64,000 bases of DNA from Plantibacter sp. VKM Ac-2880 (lineage in GTDB: Bacteria; Actinomycetota; Actinomycetes; Actinomycetales; Microbacteriaceae). The notes below the pieces were generated by a model. That model ran no database searches. It worked only from the letters and a program-made list of their open reading frames with translations, and had not been told where the DNA came from. The translations under genes were made by a program, and so were the position numbers. Numbering within the stretch: the first letter of the stretch is position 1; the number at the start of each line of letters is the position of its first letter. The stretch is taken from positions 1,116,001-1,180,000 of the forward strand of contig NZ_JADKSJ010000002.1 of the NCBI RefSeq assembly GCF_015351235.1, read 5' to 3'. Below, piece by piece: positions 8,294-54,133 of the stretch.

Positions 8294-8366
8294 TGCGCCC
8301 GAAGGGATTCGAACCCCCAACCTTCTGATCCGTAGTCAGATGCTCTATCCGTTGAGCTACGGGCGC
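8294..8366 (-). tRNA. tRNA-Arg (anticodon ACG)
   Basis: The 73-base gene reads GCGCCCG at the acceptor 5' side, paired with CGGGCGC plus discriminator A. The anticodon stem TCTGA/TCAGA holds loop CTACGGA with anticodon ACG, and the T-arm has GGTTCGAATCCC. CCA is not encoded. ACG is expected to be deaminated to ICG and to read CGU, CGC and CGA. A U-tract terminator follows immediately. Confidence 0.95.
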
Positions 8367-8478
8367 ATTGCTTGCTGAGAGAAGAGAACTTCGGCTCGGC
8401 AGGCCGAAGTAGAGCCTACAACACGGAGGCCTCAGACGCCAATCGAGCCTGGGCGGGGGCAGGGAGCTGGGGCGGGTG

Positions 8479-8630
8479 GCCCTTCGACAGGCTCAGGGAC
8501 CGGAGTGGATGGGTTCGCGGAACGGATTGCGGACCGGAGCGGCGTGGCCCTTCGACAGGCTCAGGGACCGGGGACAAGCTCAGGGACCGGTCACCGACTC
8601 AGGGACCGGTCACCGACTCAGGGACCGGCC
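8479..8630. repeat. REP-like element cluster with decayed tandem copies
   Basis: Full copies at 8479-8502 and 8547-8570 are followed by shortened copies ending in CTCAGGGACCGG around 8573-8590 and by two identical 19-base units between 8590 and 8630. The cluster fills the non-coding stretch between tRNA-Arg and the gene at 8693. The shortened units suggest slippage from an ancestral copy. Confidence 0.85.
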
Positions 8631-14636: not shown

Positions 14637-15919
14637 GCATCGACACGATCAGCACTTCGACAGGCTCAGTGACCGGGGATCACGGCACCGAGCCGCCCAC
14701 CGGCTCGGCCCCTGAGGGGCGCACGTACTGGTCGGGCAACGCCGACGAGGCCGAGCTCGCGCACTGGGACGCCGTCGCCACCGAGGTCGCCACCCGGCTC
14801 GCCGTCGACGTCCTCGAGCGCGACCGCGCCAACCTCGACCCCACGAACGAACTCGACCTCCTCCGCGACGCCGGGCTCGTCAACCTCCTCGATCCGGCCG
14901 AGTTCGGTGGCGGCGGCGGGCACTGGGAGAGCGCCTTCCGGGTCATCCGCATCCTCTCCCGGGTGGACGCCTCGATCGGCCAGCTGCTCGCGTACCACTA
15001 CATCAACGCGGGCAACATCGGCTTCACCGCGGACCCGGCCACGCAGGCCGAGTGGCACCGGAAGACCGTCGCGGGTCGCTGGATCTGGGGCGACTCGGTC
15101 AACCCGACCGATCCCGACCTCTCGCTCACGCAGGACGGCGACGCCTTCCGCCTCAACGGCCTCAAGCGCTTCTCCACGGGCGCCTCGGCGGGCGACGTCA
15201 TCCTCGTCAACGCCGTGGTCCGCGGCGGCGACCACGACGGCACGATCTTCCAGTTCGTCCTCGACCACGACCGCGACGGCATCGCCTACCTCGGCGACTG
15301 GGACGCGCTCGGCCAGCGTCTGTCGGCGTCCGGCTCGGTGCGCTTCGAGGACGTCCTCGTCGAGCAGGCCGACATCCTCGGCACCGTCGGCGACGAACCG
15401 TTCTCCTCGCTCGTGACGCCCGGCATCCAGCTCGCCTTCGGCAACCTCTACCTCGGCATCGCGGAGGGGGCGCTGGCGCAGGGCACCGAGCTCGTCCGCG
15501 CCCGCAAGAACGCCTGGTTCCTCAGCCACGCCGAGACCTACCGCGACGACCCGTTCGTGCAGCGCGTCGTCGGCGAGTTCGTCTCCTCGATCGCGGCCGT
15601 CGAAGCACTCGCAGACCGCACCAACGCCCGGTTCGACCGCATCATCGCTCGCGGTGCCGAGGTGACGGCGGCCGACCGTGGCGCGATCGCCATCGAGATC
15701 GCGAAGCTGAAGGTCGTGTCGACCGAGCTCGGCATCGAGGTCTCGAACCGCATTTTCGAGGTGACCGGCTCCAGCTCGGCGAAGGCGTCCGTCGGCCTCG
15801 ACCTGTTCTGGCGCAACGTGCGCACGCACTCCCTCCACGACCCGGTCGACTACAAGAAGCTCGAGGTCGGGGCCAACCACCTGAACGGCGAGCTGCAGCC
15901 CATCTCGCTGTACACCTAG
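14633..15919 (+). CDS. DszC/SfnB-like flavin-dependent monooxygenase (acyl-CoA dehydrogenase fold)
   Basis: The 428-residue protein has the acyl-CoA dehydrogenase fold without fatty-acid pathway context. It contains LDPAEFGGGGGHWESAFRVI, IWGDSVNPTDPDL, LKRFSTGASAGDVI and the family C-terminus FWRNVRTHSLHDPVDYKK. DszC-type members are FMNH2-dependent and oxygenate sulfur compounds. It overlaps the LLM gene by four bases. Residues 8-15 (STSTGSVT) are encoded by a diverged copy of the chromosomal repeat (14655-14675), so the N-terminal tail of about 25 residues looks repeat-derived. Confidence 0.8.
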   Translation: MSIDTISTSTGSVTGDHGTEPPTGSAPEGRTYWSGNADEAELAHWDAVATEVATRLAVDVLERDRANLDPTNELDLLRDAGLVNLLDPAEFGGGGGHWESAFRVIRILSRVDASIGQLLAYHYINAGNIGFTADPATQAEWHRKTVAGRWIWGDSVNPTDPDLSLTQDGDAFRLNGLKRFSTGASAGDVILVNAVVRGGDHDGTIFQFVLDHDRDGIAYLGDWDALGQRLSASGSVRFEDVLVEQADILGTVGDEPFSSLVTPGIQLAFGNLYLGIAEGALAQGTELVRARKNAWFLSHAETYRDDPFVQRVVGEFVSSIAAVEALADRTNARFDRIIARGAEVTAADRGAIAIEIAKLKVVSTELGIEVSNRIFEVTGSSSAKASVGLDLFWRNVRTHSLHDPVDYKKLEVGANHLNGELQPISLYT

Positions 15920-15937: not shown

Positions 15938-16077
15938 GCCCTTCGACAGGCTCAGGGACCGGGTCGGTGGTCCACCCGTCGACAGGCTCAGGGACCGCGT
16001 CCATCGTCCGCCCTTCGACAGGCTCAGGGACCGCGGTCCCTGAGCACCACACCCGGTCCCTGAGCTTGTCGAAGGGC
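15938..16077. repeat. REP-like element cluster in both orientations
   Basis: Copies at 15938-15961, about 15975-15997 and 16010-16033 point one way. A partial copy at 16034-16046 and a full copy at 16054-16077 point the other way, so transcripts could fold into hairpins. The cluster separates two genes of the same presumed operon. Confidence 0.9.
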
Positions 16078-26885: not shown

Positions 26886-27866
26886 ATGACCGAGCACACC
26901 GGACCAGGACCGAGCGAGTTGCGGGAGTCGATCGCCGCCGGCAAACGGAAGCGTCGCACCATCCTGATCGGCGGGATCGCGGCCGTCGCCGTCGCCGCCA
27001 TCGCGATCGCCGTCTCGGTCGTCATCGGTGGCCAGAACGGCGCCGCCGACGCTGCGACCGGATCCGGCGCATCCGCCGAACGACTCAGCGTGAAGATCGC
27101 CGTCTCCGAGGACACCCAGTTCCAGGACGCCGTGAAGGAGGTCGCCGCCGAGAAGGGGCTCGACGTCGAGTGGGTCAATGTGAAGGACTGGGTGCTCCCG
27201 AACACCGAGCTCGTCGCCGGCACCGTCGACGCGAACGCGTTCCAGCACATCCTCTACCTCTCAGCGTTCAACGCGGAGAACGACGCCGACCTCACGCCGG
27301 TGTTCTCGACGGTCATCACGCAGTGGGGCATCTTCTCGAAGACGCTCGGCGACGTGCAGGACCTCGCCGACGGTGCCCGGGTCGCGATCCCGGACGACCC
27401 GTCGAACGGTGGGCGCGCACTGAACATCCTCGCTGCGGCCGGCCTCATCGAGATCGCCGCTGACGCCGGCAACTTCCCGACCGTCGAGGACGTCACCGTC
27501 AACGACAAGAACCTCCAGTTCGTGCCGCTGCCGGCGACGAGCATCCCGCAGCAGTTCGACGACCCGTCGCTCGCCGCCGTCGTCGTCGGTACCTCGTACT
27601 TCGACCCCAGCCAGAACATCACGAAGGACGACGCGCTCTTCCTCGACGACTCGCTCTCCGAGAAGAACCTGCCCTACGTCAACGTCGTCGCCACCCGTGA
27701 GGACGACAAGGACAACCCGGCCTGGAAGATCCTCGAGGAGACCTACGCCGACCCGCGCGTCGCCGAGGCCCTCGACGACGAGTTCGCCGGGAACTCGATC
27801 CTCGTCCAGGTACCGGTGAAGGAGCTCCGCGACAAGCTCGCCGAGCTCCAGACCGAAGCCGGATAG
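26886..27866 (+). CDS. metQ: MetQ/NlpA family substrate-binding protein
   Basis: This 326-residue protein has the NlpA/MetQ pattern: LSVKIAVSEDTQFQDAVKEV, VDANAFQHILYLSAFNAEN, RVAIPDDPSNGGRALNILAA and PQQFDDPSLAAVVVGTSYFD. It binds methionine or a related ligand outside the membrane for the MetNI transporter. Unusually it has no lipobox cysteine (the protein contains no Cys); instead a hydrophobic helix at about 25-48 should anchor it or be cleaved as a signal peptide. It begins a metQ-metN-metI operon that also includes two flavin monooxygenases, so the natural ligand may be an organosulfur compound rather than methionine. Confidence 0.85.
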   Translation: MTEHTGPGPSELRESIAAGKRKRRTILIGGIAAVAVAAIAIAVSVVIGGQNGAADAATGSGASAERLSVKIAVSEDTQFQDAVKEVAAEKGLDVEWVNVKDWVLPNTELVAGTVDANAFQHILYLSAFNAENDADLTPVFSTVITQWGIFSKTLGDVQDLADGARVAIPDDPSNGGRALNILAAAGLIEIAADAGNFPTVEDVTVNDKNLQFVPLPATSIPQQFDDPSLAAVVVGTSYFDPSQNITKDDALFLDDSLSEKNLPYVNVVATREDDKDNPAWKILEETYADPRVAEALDDEFAGNSILVQVPVKELRDKLAELQTEAG

Positions 27867-27880
27867 GACGACCAGGCAGC

Positions 27881-27905
27881 GGCCGCCCGGGTCTCCCGGG
27901 CGGCC
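27881..27905 (+). terminator. Intercistronic hairpin between metQ and metN
   Basis: Perfect 11-bp arms GGCCGCCCGGG (27881-27891) and CCCGGGCGGCC (27895-27905) with loop TCT follow the metQ stop codon by 14 bases. It could cause partial termination or protect the metQ 3' end, giving more binding protein than transporter. Confidence 0.6.
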
Positions 27906-27925
27906 CTCCCGTGAGAGGAGCAACT

Positions 27926-29140
27926 ATGAGTACCGCGATCACCTTCGAGGACGTCAGCAAGACGTTCGAGGTACAGGGCCGCGCCTTCGAGGCGCTTCGG
28001 AACGTCGACCTGACGGTCGAGCGAGGTGAGATCTTCGGCATCGTCGGCTACTCCGGTGCCGGCAAGTCGACGCTCCTGCGCACCGTCAACGCCCTCGAGC
28101 GCCCGACGACCGGACGGGTGGTCGTCGAAGGACTCGAGATCTCGGCGCTCACGGGATCGGCGCTCTACACGGCACGTCAACGGATCGGCATGATCTTCCA
28201 GCAGTTCAACCTCCTGGAGTCACGCACCGTCTACAAGAACATCGCCTACCCGCTGAAGCTCGCGAAGGTGCCGGAGGCCGAGATCCTCGACCGCGTGGAA
28301 GAACTCCTGGCGTTCGTCGGATTGAGCGACAAGGCGCTCGCCTACCCCTCGCAGCTCTCGGGTGGGCAGAAGCAGCGCGTCGGCATCGCGCGTGCCCTCG
28401 CCACGCGCCCGGAGATCCTCATCTCCGACGAGGCGACCAGCGCCCTCGACCCGCAGACGACCGGTGAAGTCCTCGAGCTGCTCCGACGGGTGAACGCCGA
28501 GTACGGGGTGACGATCCTGCTGGTGACCCACGAGATCGACGTCATCCGCGAACTCGCCGACCGGGTGGCCGTCATGGAGGACGGCCAGGTGGTCGAGCAG
28601 GGCAGCGTCTACGAGGTGTTCTCAGCACCTCGCACGGCGACCGCACGCCGGTTCGTCTCCTCCGTCCTGCACCACATCCCCTCCGAGGAGGTGCTTACGA
28701 AGATCCGGGCCGTGCACCACGGTCGGCTCGTGCAGCTGCACGTCGAGGACCGCGACACCAACCACCCGTTCCTCTCGCGGGTGGCGCGCGACAACGACAT
28801 CGACTTCAACGTCGTGTTCGGCGGGGTCGACGAGCTCCAGGGCCGACTGTTCGGCAGCCTCACGGTCGAACTCCTCGGCCCGGACGACCGCGTCGACGCC
28901 GCCATCGACGGGCTCCGTGCCACGGCGACCGTCACCGCCATCGACCCGGGGCCGACGCCGCACTCCTCGGTCCCTGCCGCCCGCACCCCGGTCCCTGACG
29001 CCCGCCCCTCGGTCCCTGACGCCCACACCCCGGTCCCTGACGCCCACACCCCGGTCCCTGACGCCCAGAGCCCGGTCCCTGAGCCTGTCGAAGGGCACGC
29101 CGAGCACCCCACCATCCTGAAGGAGCACACCCATGCGTGA
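27926..29140 (+). CDS. metN: Methionine-type ABC transporter ATP-binding protein
   Basis: A 404-residue MetN with Walker A GYSGAGKSTLL (41-51), signature LSGGQKQRVGIARAL, Walker B ILISDEATSALD and a C-terminal NIL domain (about 265-340), which in MetN senses intracellular methionine. After the NIL domain comes a tail of about 64 residues (from 341) containing repeated VPDAHTP-like heptads encoded by the chromosomal repeat. This tail is absent from the usual MetN of about 340 residues and looks like expansion of the repeat. ATG 27926 follows GAGAGGAG. It overlaps metI by 8 bases. Confidence 0.9.
   Translation: MSTAITFEDVSKTFEVQGRAFEALRNVDLTVERGEIFGIVGYSGAGKSTLLRTVNALERPTTGRVVVEGLEISALTGSALYTARQRIGMIFQQFNLLESRTVYKNIAYPLKLAKVPEAEILDRVEELLAFVGLSDKALAYPSQLSGGQKQRVGIARALATRPEILISDEATSALDPQTTGEVLELLRRVNAEYGVTILLVTHEIDVIRELADRVAVMEDGQVVEQGSVYEVFSAPRTATARRFVSSVLHHIPSEEVLTKIRAVHHGRLVQLHVEDRDTNHPFLSRVARDNDIDFNVVFGGVDELQGRLFGSLTVELLGPDDRVDAAIDGLRATATVTAIDPGPTPHSSVPAARTPVPDARPSVPDAHTPVPDAHTPVPDAQSPVPEPVEGHAEHPTILKEHTHA
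28968..29095 (+). repeat. In-frame repeat array inside metN
   Basis: Six copies of a 21-base unit with core CGGTCCCTGACGCCC, the last being a normal REP-like copy ending in TGAGCCTGTCGAAGGGC. The 21-base period is seven codons (V-P-D-A-H-T-P), so the frame is kept. Confidence 0.85.
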
Positions 29141-29798
29141 CTTCGACCCGGAGGCGTTCTTCCCCCGTCTCCTCAAGGCCATCGGCGAGACGGGGCTGAT
29201 GGTCTCCGTGGCCTTCGCCGTCGCGACCGTCATCGGAATCCTGCTGGGCCTGCTCCTCTACGCGAGCCGTCCCGGCAACCTGCTGCAGAACCGCCTCGTG
29301 TTCGGTGTCCTCAACTTCATCATCAACGTGATCCGACCGGTGCCGTTCCTCATCGTCGCGATCGCGCTCATCCCGCTGACGCGGCTCGTGTTCGGCACCG
29401 GGCTCGGGCCGCTGCCGGCGACGATCCCGCTCATCCTCGTCGCGAGCGTCGCGATCGGGCGCGTCTCCGAGTCGAACCTCGTCGCCGTCTCGCCGGGCGC
29501 CATCGAGGCCGGCGCCGCCATGGGGGCGAGCCCCGCGCGGGTGCTCTTCACGATCGTCGTCCCCGAGGCGCTCGGGCCGCTCATCCTCGGCCTCACGTAC
29601 ATCCTGGTCGCCCTCGTCGACGCCACCGCCGTGGCCGGTGTGCTCGGTGGCGGTGGGCTCGGCGACCTCGCCATGACCTACGGCTACCAGCGGTTCGACT
29701 GGATCGTCGTCGGCCTCGTCGTCATCACCCTCGTCGTCCTCGTGCAGCTCGCGCAACTGCTCGGCAACGTCCTCGCGAAGCGGGTGCTGCACCGATGA
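29133..29798 (+). CDS. metI: Methionine-type ABC transporter permease
   Basis: The 221-residue permease has about five to six membrane helices and the EAA loop EAGAAMGASPARVLFTIVVP, which docks on MetN, followed by ALVDATAVAGVLGGGGLGDL as in MetI. Its ATG at 29133 lies 8 bases before the metN stop. Its stop overlaps the start of the following monooxygenase gene (ATGA), which ties the importer directly to the flavin enzymes. Confidence 0.9.
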   Translation: MRDFDPEAFFPRLLKAIGETGLMVSVAFAVATVIGILLGLLLYASRPGNLLQNRLVFGVLNFIINVIRPVPFLIVAIALIPLTRLVFGTGLGPLPATIPLILVASVAIGRVSESNLVAVSPGAIEAGAAMGASPARVLFTIVVPEALGPLILGLTYILVALVDATAVAGVLGGGGLGDLAMTYGYQRFDWIVVGLVVITLVVLVQLAQLLGNVLAKRVLHR

Positions 29799-30982
29799 AC
29801 GACACCGACTTCGACGCGTTCCTTGCCCGACTCTGCGGCGGCGCCGTGGCGCGCGAGACCGACCGACGCCTCCTGTTCGACGAAGTCGCCGAGCTCCGGC
29901 GGCTCGGCTTCGCCGCCGTCCGGGTCCCGCGGGAGTCCGGTGGTGCGGGGCTCACCGTCGAGCAGTTGTTCATCCGGCTCATCGCCCTGTCCGCCGCGGA
30001 TTCGAGCCTCGGGCACGTCTGGCGCGGGCACATCCTGTTCGTCGAGTCGTTGCTCGCCTCGCCCGACACCGCCTACCGCGAACTCTGGTTCGCCCGACTG
30101 CGCGACGGCGACCTCGTCGGGAACGCGCAGTCCGAGCGCCATGCGACGGCCCACCTCGAGACCGTCCTCGACCGCGACGGCGACACCCTGACGATCACGG
30201 GCACCAAGTACTACACGACCGGCAGCATCTACGCCGACTGGATCCACCTGTCCGCCCTCGACGGCCCAGACCGGGTCGCAGCGACCGTCTCGGCGCACGA
30301 CCCTGGAACCCGCTCGGTGGATGACTGGGACGGCTTCGGCCAACCGTTGACCGGGAGCGGCACGACCACGTTCGACCGGGTGCCGGTGGACCCTCGCGAC
30401 CTCGTCGTCCACCGCGGCGACGCGGCGGCATGGCACCGCACCGGCGCGCTGCAGCAGCTCATCCTGCTCGGCGTGGTCGCCGGGATCGCGCAGCGCGCGC
30501 TCGAGGACACCGTCGACTATGTGCGGGCCCGGCGTCGCACGGTCGGGCACGCTGGCGAGCACCTTCCCAGCCAGGATCCGCTCGTGCAGGCGATCGTCGG
30601 TCAGCTGACCAGCGTCGTCCACACCGCCCGCGCACTCGTCCTCGCCGCCGCCAGGACCCTCGGCGAGCCGGACGGCGGTCCGGACGCCGCCCGCGAGACG
30701 CTGCTCGAGGTCTTCCGTGTCCAGCAGATCGTCCTCCCGCTCGTCCTCGACGCGCTCAGCCGACTCTTCGAGGTCGGCGGGGCCTCCGCCGTCGGTCGGG
30801 CGTCGGCGCTCGACCGGCACTGGCGGAACGTCCGCACGATCGCCTCGCACAACCCGGCCGTCCAACGGGCGGCTGCCCTCGGGCAGTTCGAACTGCTCGG
30901 CACCCTGCCCGAGTGGGAGGCCCCTGGCGCCCGGTCGGACGTGGAACCGGCGTCGGTCGCCGTGGACGGAGAGGCGTCGTGA
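29795..30982 (+). CDS. DszC/SfnB-like flavin-dependent monooxygenase
   Basis: A 395-residue acyl-CoA dehydrogenase-fold protein with VPRESGGAGLTVEQLFIRLI, GNAQSERHATAH, GTKYYTTGSIYADWIHLSA, DWDGFGQPLTGSGTTTF and DRHWRNVRTIASHNPAV. It belongs to the same group as the proteins at 16105 and 30979. It is translationally coupled to metI by an ATGA overlap and to the next gene by GTGA, so it belongs to the metQNI operon. It probably oxygenates the imported sulfur compound with reduced flavin; the reductase is not in the window. Confidence 0.82.
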   Translation: MNDTDFDAFLARLCGGAVARETDRRLLFDEVAELRRLGFAAVRVPRESGGAGLTVEQLFIRLIALSAADSSLGHVWRGHILFVESLLASPDTAYRELWFARLRDGDLVGNAQSERHATAHLETVLDRDGDTLTITGTKYYTTGSIYADWIHLSALDGPDRVAATVSAHDPGTRSVDDWDGFGQPLTGSGTTTFDRVPVDPRDLVVHRGDAAAWHRTGALQQLILLGVVAGIAQRALEDTVDYVRARRRTVGHAGEHLPSQDPLVQAIVGQLTSVVHTARALVLAAARTLGEPDGGPDAARETLLEVFRVQQIVLPLVLDALSRLFEVGGASAVGRASALDRHWRNVRTIASHNPAVQRAAALGQFELLGTLPEWEAPGARSDVEPASVAVDGEAS

Positions 30983-32175
30983 GCGCGACGGCGATCGACC
31001 GGGATCTGGTCGCCCGCTTCGCTCCGCTCTTCGACGAACTCGGGCGTGACGCGGTCGAGCGGGAGCGCGAGCGCCGCCTGCCGTATGCCGAGGTCGAAGC
31101 GCTTCGTGCGGCCGGCTTCACCCGGGTGACCCTGCCGCATGAACACGGCGGTGAGGGTGCCACGCACGGCGAATTCTTCGAGCTGCTCGCGGAACTGGCC
31201 AGACGCGACCCGAACCTCGCGCAGCTGTTCCGCTCCCACTTCTCCTACATCGACCGCACGCTCCATGCGCCGGCCTCCGACGACCGGGAGGCACGCCTCG
31301 CCCGCCTCGCCGACGGAGCCATCGTCGGCAACGCGAGCCATGAGCGTTCGACCGCCAAGGTCGGGTCGCTCGCAACGCGACTCACCCGGACGCCGCAGGG
31401 ACTGCGGCTGAACGGGACGAAGTTCTACAGCACCGGCACGCTGTTCGCCGACCTCGTCGGCGTCGCGGCCGAGGAGGACGGCGAGTTCGTCTCGGTGCTC
31501 GTGGACACGGGTGCCCCCGGCGTCGATCGGATCGACGACTGGACCGGATTCGGACAACGCCTGACGGGCAGCGGCACGACGGTGTTCACGGATGTCGCTG
31601 TCGATCCCTCGACCGTGATGAGACGCGAACCGGACCGGCCGTCACATGGTGGCGCGTTCGTGCAGCTGGTCCTGCTCGCCGCGGTCACCGGCATCGGGCG
31701 AGCGATCGTCGACGACGCCGCCGCGTTCGTCCGCGCACGGACGAGGACGTACAGCCACGGAGCTGCCGCCACCGCTCAGGGTGACCCGATCGTGCAGGAG
31801 GTCGTCGGCGAGCTGTCGGCGAAGTCCTTCGCGGCCGACGCGGCGCTGGCCGCGGCGACGACCGCGCTCGACCGTTCGAGCCGGGCGATCCTCGTTGGAG
31901 ACCCGGAACGGGCCCGGGTGCAGCTCGCCGCCGTCGAGCTCGCCACGGCCCGAGCACAACTCGTGATCCTGCCCGCGGTGCTCGACGCGGCGACCGCCCT
32001 GTTCGACGTGGGTGGCGCCAGCGCCGTCGAGACGCACCTCGCGCTCGATCGGCACTGGCGGAACGCGCGCACGATCGCCTCGCACAACCCGGCCCGGTTC
32101 AAGGCGAGGGCGATCGGCGACCACCTCGTCAACGGCACGCCGATCGCCTCCTGGTGGAGCACCGGCGAGGCCTGA
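30979..32175 (+). CDS. DszC/SfnB-like flavin-dependent monooxygenase, last gene of met operon
   Basis: The 398-residue protein is a second DszC/SfnB-like member of the operon, with LPHEHGGEGATHGEFFELLA, GNASHERSTAKVGS, GTKFYSTGTLFADLVGVAA and DRHWRNARTIASHNPARFKA. GTG 30979 overlaps the preceding stop by four bases; a much longer upstream frame would run through that gene. Two tandem paralogs may act on different substrates or form a two-component pair. A tandem repeat array follows immediately after its stop codon. Confidence 0.82.
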   Translation: MSATAIDRDLVARFAPLFDELGRDAVERERERRLPYAEVEALRAAGFTRVTLPHEHGGEGATHGEFFELLAELARRDPNLAQLFRSHFSYIDRTLHAPASDDREARLARLADGAIVGNASHERSTAKVGSLATRLTRTPQGLRLNGTKFYSTGTLFADLVGVAAEEDGEFVSVLVDTGAPGVDRIDDWTGFGQRLTGSGTTVFTDVAVDPSTVMRREPDRPSHGGAFVQLVLLAAVTGIGRAIVDDAAAFVRARTRTYSHGAAATAQGDPIVQEVVGELSAKSFAADAALAAATTALDRSSRAILVGDPERARVQLAAVELATARAQLVILPAVLDAATALFDVGGASAVETHLALDRHWRNARTIASHNPARFKARAIGDHLVNGTPIASWWSTGEA

Positions 32176-32183
32176 CGCCAGTT

Positions 32184-32328
32184 GGTCCCTGAGCCTGTCG
32201 AAGGGCGGTCCCTGAGCCTGTCGAAGGGTGGTCCCTGAGCCTATCGAAGGGCGGTCCCTGAGCCTGTCGAAGGGCGGTCCCTGAGCCTGTCGAAGGGCGG
32301 CTCTCGCCTCCGACGAGCTCAGGGACCG
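32184..32328. repeat. Five-copy tandem array of the REP-like element
   Basis: Five head-to-tail 23-base units start at 32184, 32207, 32230, 32253 and 32276 without spacers. Only single-base differences separate them (a T at 32229, an A in the unit at 32230). A reversed partial copy ending CTCAGGGACCG lies at about 32312-32328, so the region can form hairpins between convergent genes. Confidence 0.95.
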
Positions 32329-46745: not shown

Positions 46746-47240
46746 CTACGCGCTGATGCCGGTCGAGGCAGCGCCGCCGACACCGGCGAGCAGGCCACCG
46801 ATGACGAACACCCAGAGCACGACGAGCGCCGCCCACCCGAGGAGGAACAGTCCGTTGAGGACGACACCCGTGATCGCCATGGCCCGACCGGTCGGCTCCC
46901 GCTTGAGCGCCATGAGTCCGAGCACGAACCCGACGACGGGGAGCACGAAGGTGAACCCGAAGAACAGCGAGACCAGGCCGATCACCATGCTGGAGATGCT
47001 CAGGCCACGCGGCGGTGACTGCGGGTAGGGGTAGGGAGCCGGATACATCGGCTGCGCATACGGCTGCTGCGCGTACGGCTGCACCGGGTACTGCTGCACC
47101 GGGTACTGCTGGGCGTACGGCTGCACCGGGTACGGCTGGACGTACGGCTGCACGGCGCCGGATTGTGGCGGAGCGGGCTGCTGCGGGTACGCCTCGTGCG
47201 GTGCAGGGGGTTGCGGCTTCCATCCGTCCGGTGCGCTCAT
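46746..47240 (-). CDS. DUF4190 membrane protein with a Pro/Gln/Tyr repeat head
   Basis: A 164-residue protein whose first half is a run of short P-Y-x-Q-Q/P repeats (PVQPYAQQYPVQ and similar) and whose second half has two membrane helices with VIGLVSLFFGFTFVLPVVGF and ALKREPTGRAMAITGVVLNG, the DUF4190 signature. The role of DUF4190 is unknown; many are small actinobacterial envelope proteins. TAGGCT (47248-47253) lies 7 bases before ATG 47240 on the minus strand, so the gene is probably leaderless. Confidence 0.8.
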   Translation of the reverse strand: MSAPDGWKPQPPAPHEAYPQQPAPPQSGAVQPYVQPYPVQPYAQQYPVQQYPVQPYAQQPYAQPMYPAPYPYPQSPPRGLSISSMVIGLVSLFFGFTFVLPVVGFVLGLMALKREPTGRAMAITGVVLNGLFLLGWAALVVLWVFVIGGLLAGVGGAASTGISA

Positions 47241-53876: not shown

Positions 53877-53965
53877 CGGAGACGGCGGGATTTGAACCCG
53901 CGGTCCCCTTACGGGGACTCCACCTTAGCAGGGTGGTGCACTAGGCCGAACTATGCGACGTCTCC
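53877..53965 (-). tRNA. tRNA-Ser (anticodon GCT)
   Basis: The 89-base gene has acceptor GGAGACG/CGTCTCC with discriminator G, anticodon stem CCACC/GGTGG with loop CTGCTAA (anticodon GCT), a long variable arm typical of serine tRNAs, and T-arm GGGTTCAAATCCC. It reads AGC and AGU. CCA is not encoded. Confidence 0.95.
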
Positions 53966-54051: not shown

Positions 54052-54133
54052 GCCCTTCGACAAGCTCAGGGACCGGAGTCAGCTCAGGGACCGGAGTCAG
54101 CTCATGGACCGGAGCCAGCTCATGGACCGGGTG
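54052..54133. repeat. REP-like element with an 18-base tandem derivative
   Basis: A full copy at 54052-54075 is followed by head-to-tail 18-base units AGCTCAGGGACCGGAGTC at 54063 and 54081, then AGCTCATGG-type variants at 54099 and 54117. The new period arose within the element. Confidence 0.85.

Follow-up and report, generated by a model that had tools for sequence, protein, structure and literature searches.

Why does the gene for a conserved transporter ATPase in Plantibacter sp. VKM Ac-2880 end in a stretch of short repeats related to a sequence that is scattered over the whole chromosome? The gene, which resembles metN, lies within 64,000 nucleotides of contig NZ_JADKSJ010000002.1 (positions 1,116,001 to 1,180,000, forward strand), the whole of which is called the window hereafter and to which all unprefixed coordinates refer (Table 1). 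Comparison with a genus set of seven Plantibacter genomes, one per species (G000 to G006, G000 being the genome of the window), and with more distant relatives favors the reading that the tail is the tolerated in-frame product of a capped REP-like array, remodelled in each lineage and kept in frame by the overlap of metN with metI; we give this reading a probability of about two in three.

Table 1. Features of the metN locus and related arrays in the window.
Feature	Position	Strand	Remark
metQ-like substrate-binding lipoprotein gene	26886..27866	+	
metN-like ABC ATPase gene, C-terminal tail repeat-encoded	27926..29140	+	404 aa; ATG 27926, TGA 29138-29140
Extra tail, residues 343-404	28952..29137	+	pLDDT below 50; outgroup genes end near here
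Five partial 21-bp units (head CGGTCCCTGA and array-specific spacer), VPDAHTP-like heptads	28970..29074	+	
Cap: single full-length copy of chromosomal repeat GTCCCTGAGCCTGTCGAAGGG, codes VPEPVEG	29075..29095	+	
Likely metI ribosome-binding site AAGGAG, within the metN end	29120..29125	+	sequence reading
ATGCGTGA, metN stop/metI start, 8-nt overlap	29133..29140	+	same geometry in 25/25 loci
metI-like permease gene	29133..29798	+	
Two SfnB-like sulfur-acquisition oxidoreductase genes, operon continuation	29795-30982 and about 30979-32175	+	
Array of the chromosomal repeat immediately 3' of the operon: five near-full copies, period 23	32184..32300	+	
Capped arrays 5' of tRNA genes	8460-8628 and 54053-54130	minus (as the tRNA genes)	

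The protein has the make-up of a broad MetN-type ABC ATPase, with an ABC_tran domain at residues 24-172 and a C-terminal NIL domain at residues 267-332 (Pfam), and its best solved match in Foldseek is chain 3tui_D (343 aa, 45% identity). MetN of MetNI (3tui, 6cvl) likewise joins an ABC ATPase to a C-terminal NIL domain, but its chains, 343-344 aa long, stop where the Plantibacter tail starts, which leaves 62 residues beyond the known MetN fold. The initial annotation had counted about 64 extra residues after the NIL domain; the tail exists and comprises 62 (343-404). In an AlphaFold model computed from a 21-sequence alignment the mean pLDDT of MetN is 82.2 and residues 343-404 fall below 50, and the tail is predicted to be disordered. 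Assignment by the TIGR02314 equivalog model is uninformative: metN scores 353.4 bits and the second MetN-like gene of the genome 312.1 bits, both below the cut-off of 499.7, which has no discriminating power here. The operon (26886-32175) codes for MetQ-, MetN- and MetI-like proteins and two SfnB-like ones, all of which fall below curated cut-offs. Because it runs into these two oxidoreductase genes, methionine is uncertain as the substrate of the transporter, and the context would suit uptake of a sulfur compound that is not necessarily methionine and may be another organosulfur compound.

The tail has a definite internal order. TRF reports tandem 21-bp repeats over 28954-29082 (6.1 copies, 87% matches, score 186). 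In order, the tail consists of a few leading residues, five partial units (starting at 28970, 28991, 29012, 29033 and 29054), one full 21-mer and 14 last residues, whose DNA contains the likely metI ribosome-binding site. The tail had been described as a run of VPDAHTP-like heptads encoded by a 21-base version of the chromosomal repeat. The heptads are found in the five partial units and do not extend to the full 21-mer or to the 14 residues after it; the array does have a 21-bp period and one full 21-mer, but each partial unit matches the chromosomal repeat in only about its first 10 bases, the remainder being a spacer specific to this array. The tail repeat is not a product of chance, because repeat-bearing tails occur in all six orthologues and the exact 21-mer is present 255 times in G000, where an exact search with the reversed control pattern gave no match.

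The genus assignment rests on two loci of the relatives that match named Plantibacter records without a difference over 4056 bases. Six of the seven genus genomes have a metN orthologue, G006 showing the paralogue only. In all six the tail sits at one common site, contains the repeat and ends the protein with LKEHTHA, and all six genes are in frame, yet the make-up differs: VPDAHTP-like heptads in G000 (404 aa), two full repeat copies in G005 (408 aa), PVPEPA/T-like hexads (18 bp) in G002 (406 aa) and in G004 and G001 (388 aa each, equal in length and different in sequence), and a short tail in G003 (379 aa), where a reversed copy reads ALRQAQGPGVGQQGP (ALRQAQGP). Beyond the genus, a family search returned a MetN match at E <= 1e-125 in 25 of 398 genomes, 19 of them outside Plantibacter. 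All 19 proteins end at the NIL domain or no more than about 20 residues past it, and the repeat was not seen by eye in any of these C-termini, nor in those of three more distant loci (L022, L023 and L024, out of 80 named ones), of which L023 has some 20 extra residues. Among the loci examined, the insertion is specific to Plantibacter as far as these sequences indicate. The proposal of the initial annotation that the element entered the gene and grew in frame is borne out by the 19 outgroup loci without it and by lengths of 379-408 aa in 6/6 orthologues, and tail length, which it proposed to compare between related strains, varies across the six species; instead of tails equal in length and free of the repeat, there are tails that differ and carry it.

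The repeat from which the tail is built shares with REPs a length of 20-40 bp, a high copy number and a mostly intergenic location. There are 120-322 exact 21-mers per Plantibacter genome, against none for the reversed control pattern. When copies with up to 2 mismatches were scored against genes predicted by a home-made, codon-usage-based caller, 151/158 lay between genes in the sampled DNA of G000, 65/75 in that of G002 and 122/136 in that of G001, although this DNA is about 88% genic. Those inside predicted genes numbered 6, 7 and 9, respectively, with 1, 3 and 5 partly inside; the inside counts include one weak match per genome at the N-terminus of one gene family (window 14653-14673, L186:9955-9975, L196:5794-5814) and, in G001, two copies in tiny, spurious-looking ORFs. 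Neighbouring stretches overlap by 500 bases and duplicates were kept in the counts. The G000 stretches were chosen for MetN-tail matches, plus one (C1:89336-96725) chosen from repeat places, and part of those of G001 because repeats were listed there, so that copy densities cannot be extrapolated to whole genomes. The family is patchily distributed, because its 19-base core is present in 6/296 phylum genomes (271 copies in G000, 1-17 in the others), and 17/398 family genomes, representing 7/85 genera, contain a full copy preceded by another unit, partial or full. The repeat string had no match in literature texts, a weak test as sequence strings are rarely printed, and no description of this element was among the matches listed (titles and abstract starts) for genus repeats and for actinobacterial or intragenic REPs.

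Three further observations concern repeats in this genome. The exact 21-mers of G000 are skewed between strands (90 forward, 165 reverse) more strongly than in the six sister genomes, to which contig orientation or replication direction may contribute. Both Rfam tRNA genes of the window (8294-8366 and 53877-53965, minus strand) have a capped array 90-115 bases 5' on the same strand. A separate 15-bp tandem repeat lies at 47059-47153, within a predicted minus-strand gene (46746-47153).

Arrays resembling that of metN recur elsewhere. Among 68 runs of units, 58 contain one full copy, 8 several, 1 only full copies and 1 none, and the full copy comes last in all 58 one-copy runs; the run window misses units that lie past a 21-base full copy, and 58/58 was rejected as a polarity figure. 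The figure to use is that of a symmetric test with equal windows on 366 full copies: a partial unit lies upstream of 83, downstream of 11 and on both sides of 7. The partial units retain CCGGTCCCTGA together with a spacer whose identity is 86.7% within an array (174 pairs) against 46.5% between arrays (264 pairs), and 88 of 133 spacings between genes measure 17 to 23 bases. When the unit furthest from the cap is compared with the nearest one, its head is the more decayed in 22 of the 58 arrays and the less decayed in 5, with no difference in 31 (Wilcoxon p = 8e-4), which agrees with growth next to the cap. A count of older units, in a decayed state, one period upstream (25/58) lacks a control and was left unused. 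Some copies form inverted pairs, as at window 16011-16076. No gene for a RAYT (Y1_Tnp, PF01797) was detected in the 7 genus genomes by a search whose control was positive in 5/14 named genomes. It is conceivable, though the odds are somewhat against it, that a family without a recognised RAYT grows in an undescribed manner, by repeated duplication of the 10-base head and its neighbouring spacer to one side of the terminal full copy, and that arrays growing like this within genes or at their ends keep supplying conserved transporters and enzymes with new disordered tails and linkers particular to each species.

The cap itself bears on what is being maintained. Three pairs of orthologues show 0/21 differences in it, against 15, 32 and 35 of 120 sites for the remainder of the tail, the last two counts coming from an ungapped 3'-end alignment and possibly overstated; a process at the level of DNA or RNA may therefore also act, keeping the full copy intact. 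The element could on this basis be kept as DNA or RNA, either for the structure of the metN-metI mRNA or as a protein-binding site, with the peptide as a by-product. That most sampled copies are intergenic would agree with such a role, as would the 75/158 copies of the G000 sample that lie between same-strand genes, 59/75 of them on the strand of the flanking genes. A lone unit, however, is predicted to fold weakly (-3.7 to -4.5 kcal/mol, 4-bp stem), the G003 copy is reversed, no Rfam family matches the repeat in the window, and copying between elements would likewise preserve the cap. Overall, we regard it as unlikely that the element is kept at this level.

MetN is one of several genes with the repeat in frame. 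An MmpL-family transporter (L132:1289-4138, L167-L173) has an array of differing length in an internal loop in 7/7 genomes, and a sugar-type ABC ATPase (L147:2959-4695, L160-L166) has a repeat-coded C-terminal tail in 7/7, extending 78-135 residues past a fixed point and ending on ATGA in every genome; in G000 this ATG is the called start of the following gene. In a loop of the 2-methylcitrate dehydratase PrpD (L210-L216), G000, G001, G002 and G003 have an in-frame insert and G004, G005 and G006 are empty. The insert is a single reversed copy in G001 and a forward copy next to a partial, inverted one in G000, G002 and G003. The MetN genes of G000 and G005 are the most alike, yet PrpD is filled in the former and empty in the latter, which is on sequence comparison the clearest sign of gain or loss of the repeat. 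Finally, a protein with a GH3 N-terminal domain (L176:6501-8126) carries the repeat in frame after this domain, as a four-unit array in G002, and a putative orthologue in G001 (L203:5162-6733), with similar flanking residues, has a single unit. The spacings between units are multiples of three in 13/13 cases inside genes and in 72/212 between genes; 13/13 was set aside as decisive proof, the gene caller extending only through stop-free arrays, which makes the count partly circular, and the in-frame claim is carried by the cross-species comparison.

Amino-acid constraint on the MetN tail is relaxed. The dN/dS of core and tail is 0.07 v 1.0 for G004/G001, 0.03 v 1.4 for G000/G005, 0.04 v 0.6 for G002/G004 and 0.05 v 0.4 for G002/G001, these being 4 of the 15 possible pairs, all among the genomes other than G003, with some tails aligned across gaps. 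In terms of changes, G004/G001 have 28 synonymous and 6 nonsynonymous ones in the core and 4 and 11 in the tail (Fisher p = 3e-4). The corresponding synonymous/nonsynonymous counts are 36/4 and 7.2/27.8 for G000/G005 (p = 7e-10, rounded counts) and 32/4 and 6/10 for G002/G004 (p = 3e-4), and those of G002/G001, outside the Fisher set, point in the same direction (23/4 and 7/8). The amino acids of the tail are close to unconstrained. It had been suggested that the tail could affect transporter assembly or methionine inhibition; such a role found no support, because the tail is near neutral and predicted to be disordered, and its sequence and the orientation of its repeat vary by species.

A broader version of this idea is that the tail is a functional disordered region in which the proline-rich, acidic make-up and the length matter and the exact sequence does not. 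All six orthologues in the genus do possess a tail, and repeats of P, V, E/D and A abound in five of them. Such a function is nevertheless difficult to reconcile with dN/dS values of about 0.4-1.4, with the short tail that G003 derives from a reversed copy, with the absence of such a tail from the in-genome paralogue and the family outgroups, and with the occurrence of the same type of peptide in unrelated proteins, and we consider it rather improbable. An assembly or annotation artefact, with the real MetN ending ahead of the array, is very improbable, as the frame is open in 6/6 separate assemblies and in-frame stops are absent from every tail; nor did evidence emerge of the assembly frameshift that the initial annotation had named as a refutation, two of the open-frame genomes being single-contig assemblies.

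The reading that the tail is a tolerated product of the array has to account for the open frame of all six tails. Frame 0 has no stop in any of them, a second frame has 1 stop per tail, and the third has 5, 4, 8, 5, 5 and 0; after base shuffling (2000), a frame-0 stop arises in 3.3 of 6 tails on average and in none for 0.45%. At this locus, therefore, the reading frame is constrained and the amino acids little so. The most likely reason for the keeping of the frame is that the metN stop overlaps the metI start. The 8-nt overlap is common to 6/6 Plantibacter and 19/19 family outgroup loci, in all 19 of which a metI-length frame of 220-225 codons continues past it, and a spacing of -8 nt is counted among the enriched gene overlaps in the part of a 2025 review used here (PMC12548453). 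It is not universal: of the more distant named loci, L023 has the 8-nt overlap, L022 has TGATG and L024 has none. Because the repeat units contain TGA in one frame, an out-of-frame array would as a rule end metN ahead of the metI start. Five sampled genes have a C-terminal repeat, of which three end on an overlap (MetN, the L147 ABC ATPase and the L181 ATP-grasp gene) and two do not (L133 and L206); against a background of 51/171, 52/170 and 72/265 same-strand gene pairs (about 30%), this enrichment is not significant (p = 0.16). Frame conservation alone fits coupling and a need for some tail of whatever sequence equally, and we infer translational coupling as the frame-keeping force at metN/metI.

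The following course of events would fit the preferred reading of a tolerated, capped array. In an ancestor of these Plantibacter species, a REP-like repeat would have arrived where metN meets metI, past the NIL domain and ahead of the metI ribosome-binding site. Each lineage would then have lengthened, shortened and reshaped it on its own, the arrays taking the form of partial units (a 10-base head plus spacer) that run up to a single full copy on the 3' side. Inside metN, the changes to survive would be those that leave the reading frame open, most probably for the reason that an early metN stop in another frame would loosen the translation of metI. The peptide would be translated and do no harm, a tolerated, disordered segment that itself has little function or none. 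The locus would accordingly offer a replicated case of selfish-looking DNA turned into protein, with empty outgroups, six differing filled states, near-neutral amino acids and a single strict constraint, that of the frame. It suggests that, where stop and start overlap at an operon junction, repeats can be driven into the protein of the upstream gene and unusual bacterial tails can arise in this way, and the polar arrays raise the question of how repeats grow without a recognised REP transposase.

Several known systems resemble this one in part. REPs of the GTAG and CGTC families are, as the portions of the source considered here describe them, short, high-copy and mostly intergenic, with some copies in frame inside genes, some copies at the 3' end of genes, and with clusters coding for 43-82 aa in Thauera and R. 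conorii (PMC3733652). In contrast to these, the Plantibacter consensus CCGGTCCCTGAGCYTGTCGAAGGGC has no GTAG or CGTC tag, no RAYT (Y1_Tnp) gene was found in the genus, and the arrays are polar, their partial units being closed off by a single full copy. Rickettsia palindromic elements (RPEs), as cited in the same portions of PMC3733652, also insert in frame into functional genes, but they belong to another host, and tandem arrays that vary in length between species are not mentioned there. Mycobacterial MIRUs, according to the part of the review used here, insert at start codons, and their internal ORF becomes coupled to the gene (PMC12548453). They share with the Plantibacter repeat a mobile-looking actinobacterial element at a coupled junction whose coupling is kept, the coupling in Plantibacter being presumed; the array sits at the stop/start overlap and preserves it in 6/6 orthologues. 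On the other hand, the MIRU's own small ORF is coupled at -4 nt, whereas the Plantibacter array extends the upstream gene and metI keeps the older overlap of -8 nt. The metN tail would thus be known in kind from REPs, RPEs and MIRUs, and what appears new is a repeat without a GTAG or CGTC tag or a recognised RAYT, its polar arrays and the comparison of its in-frame states across a genus.
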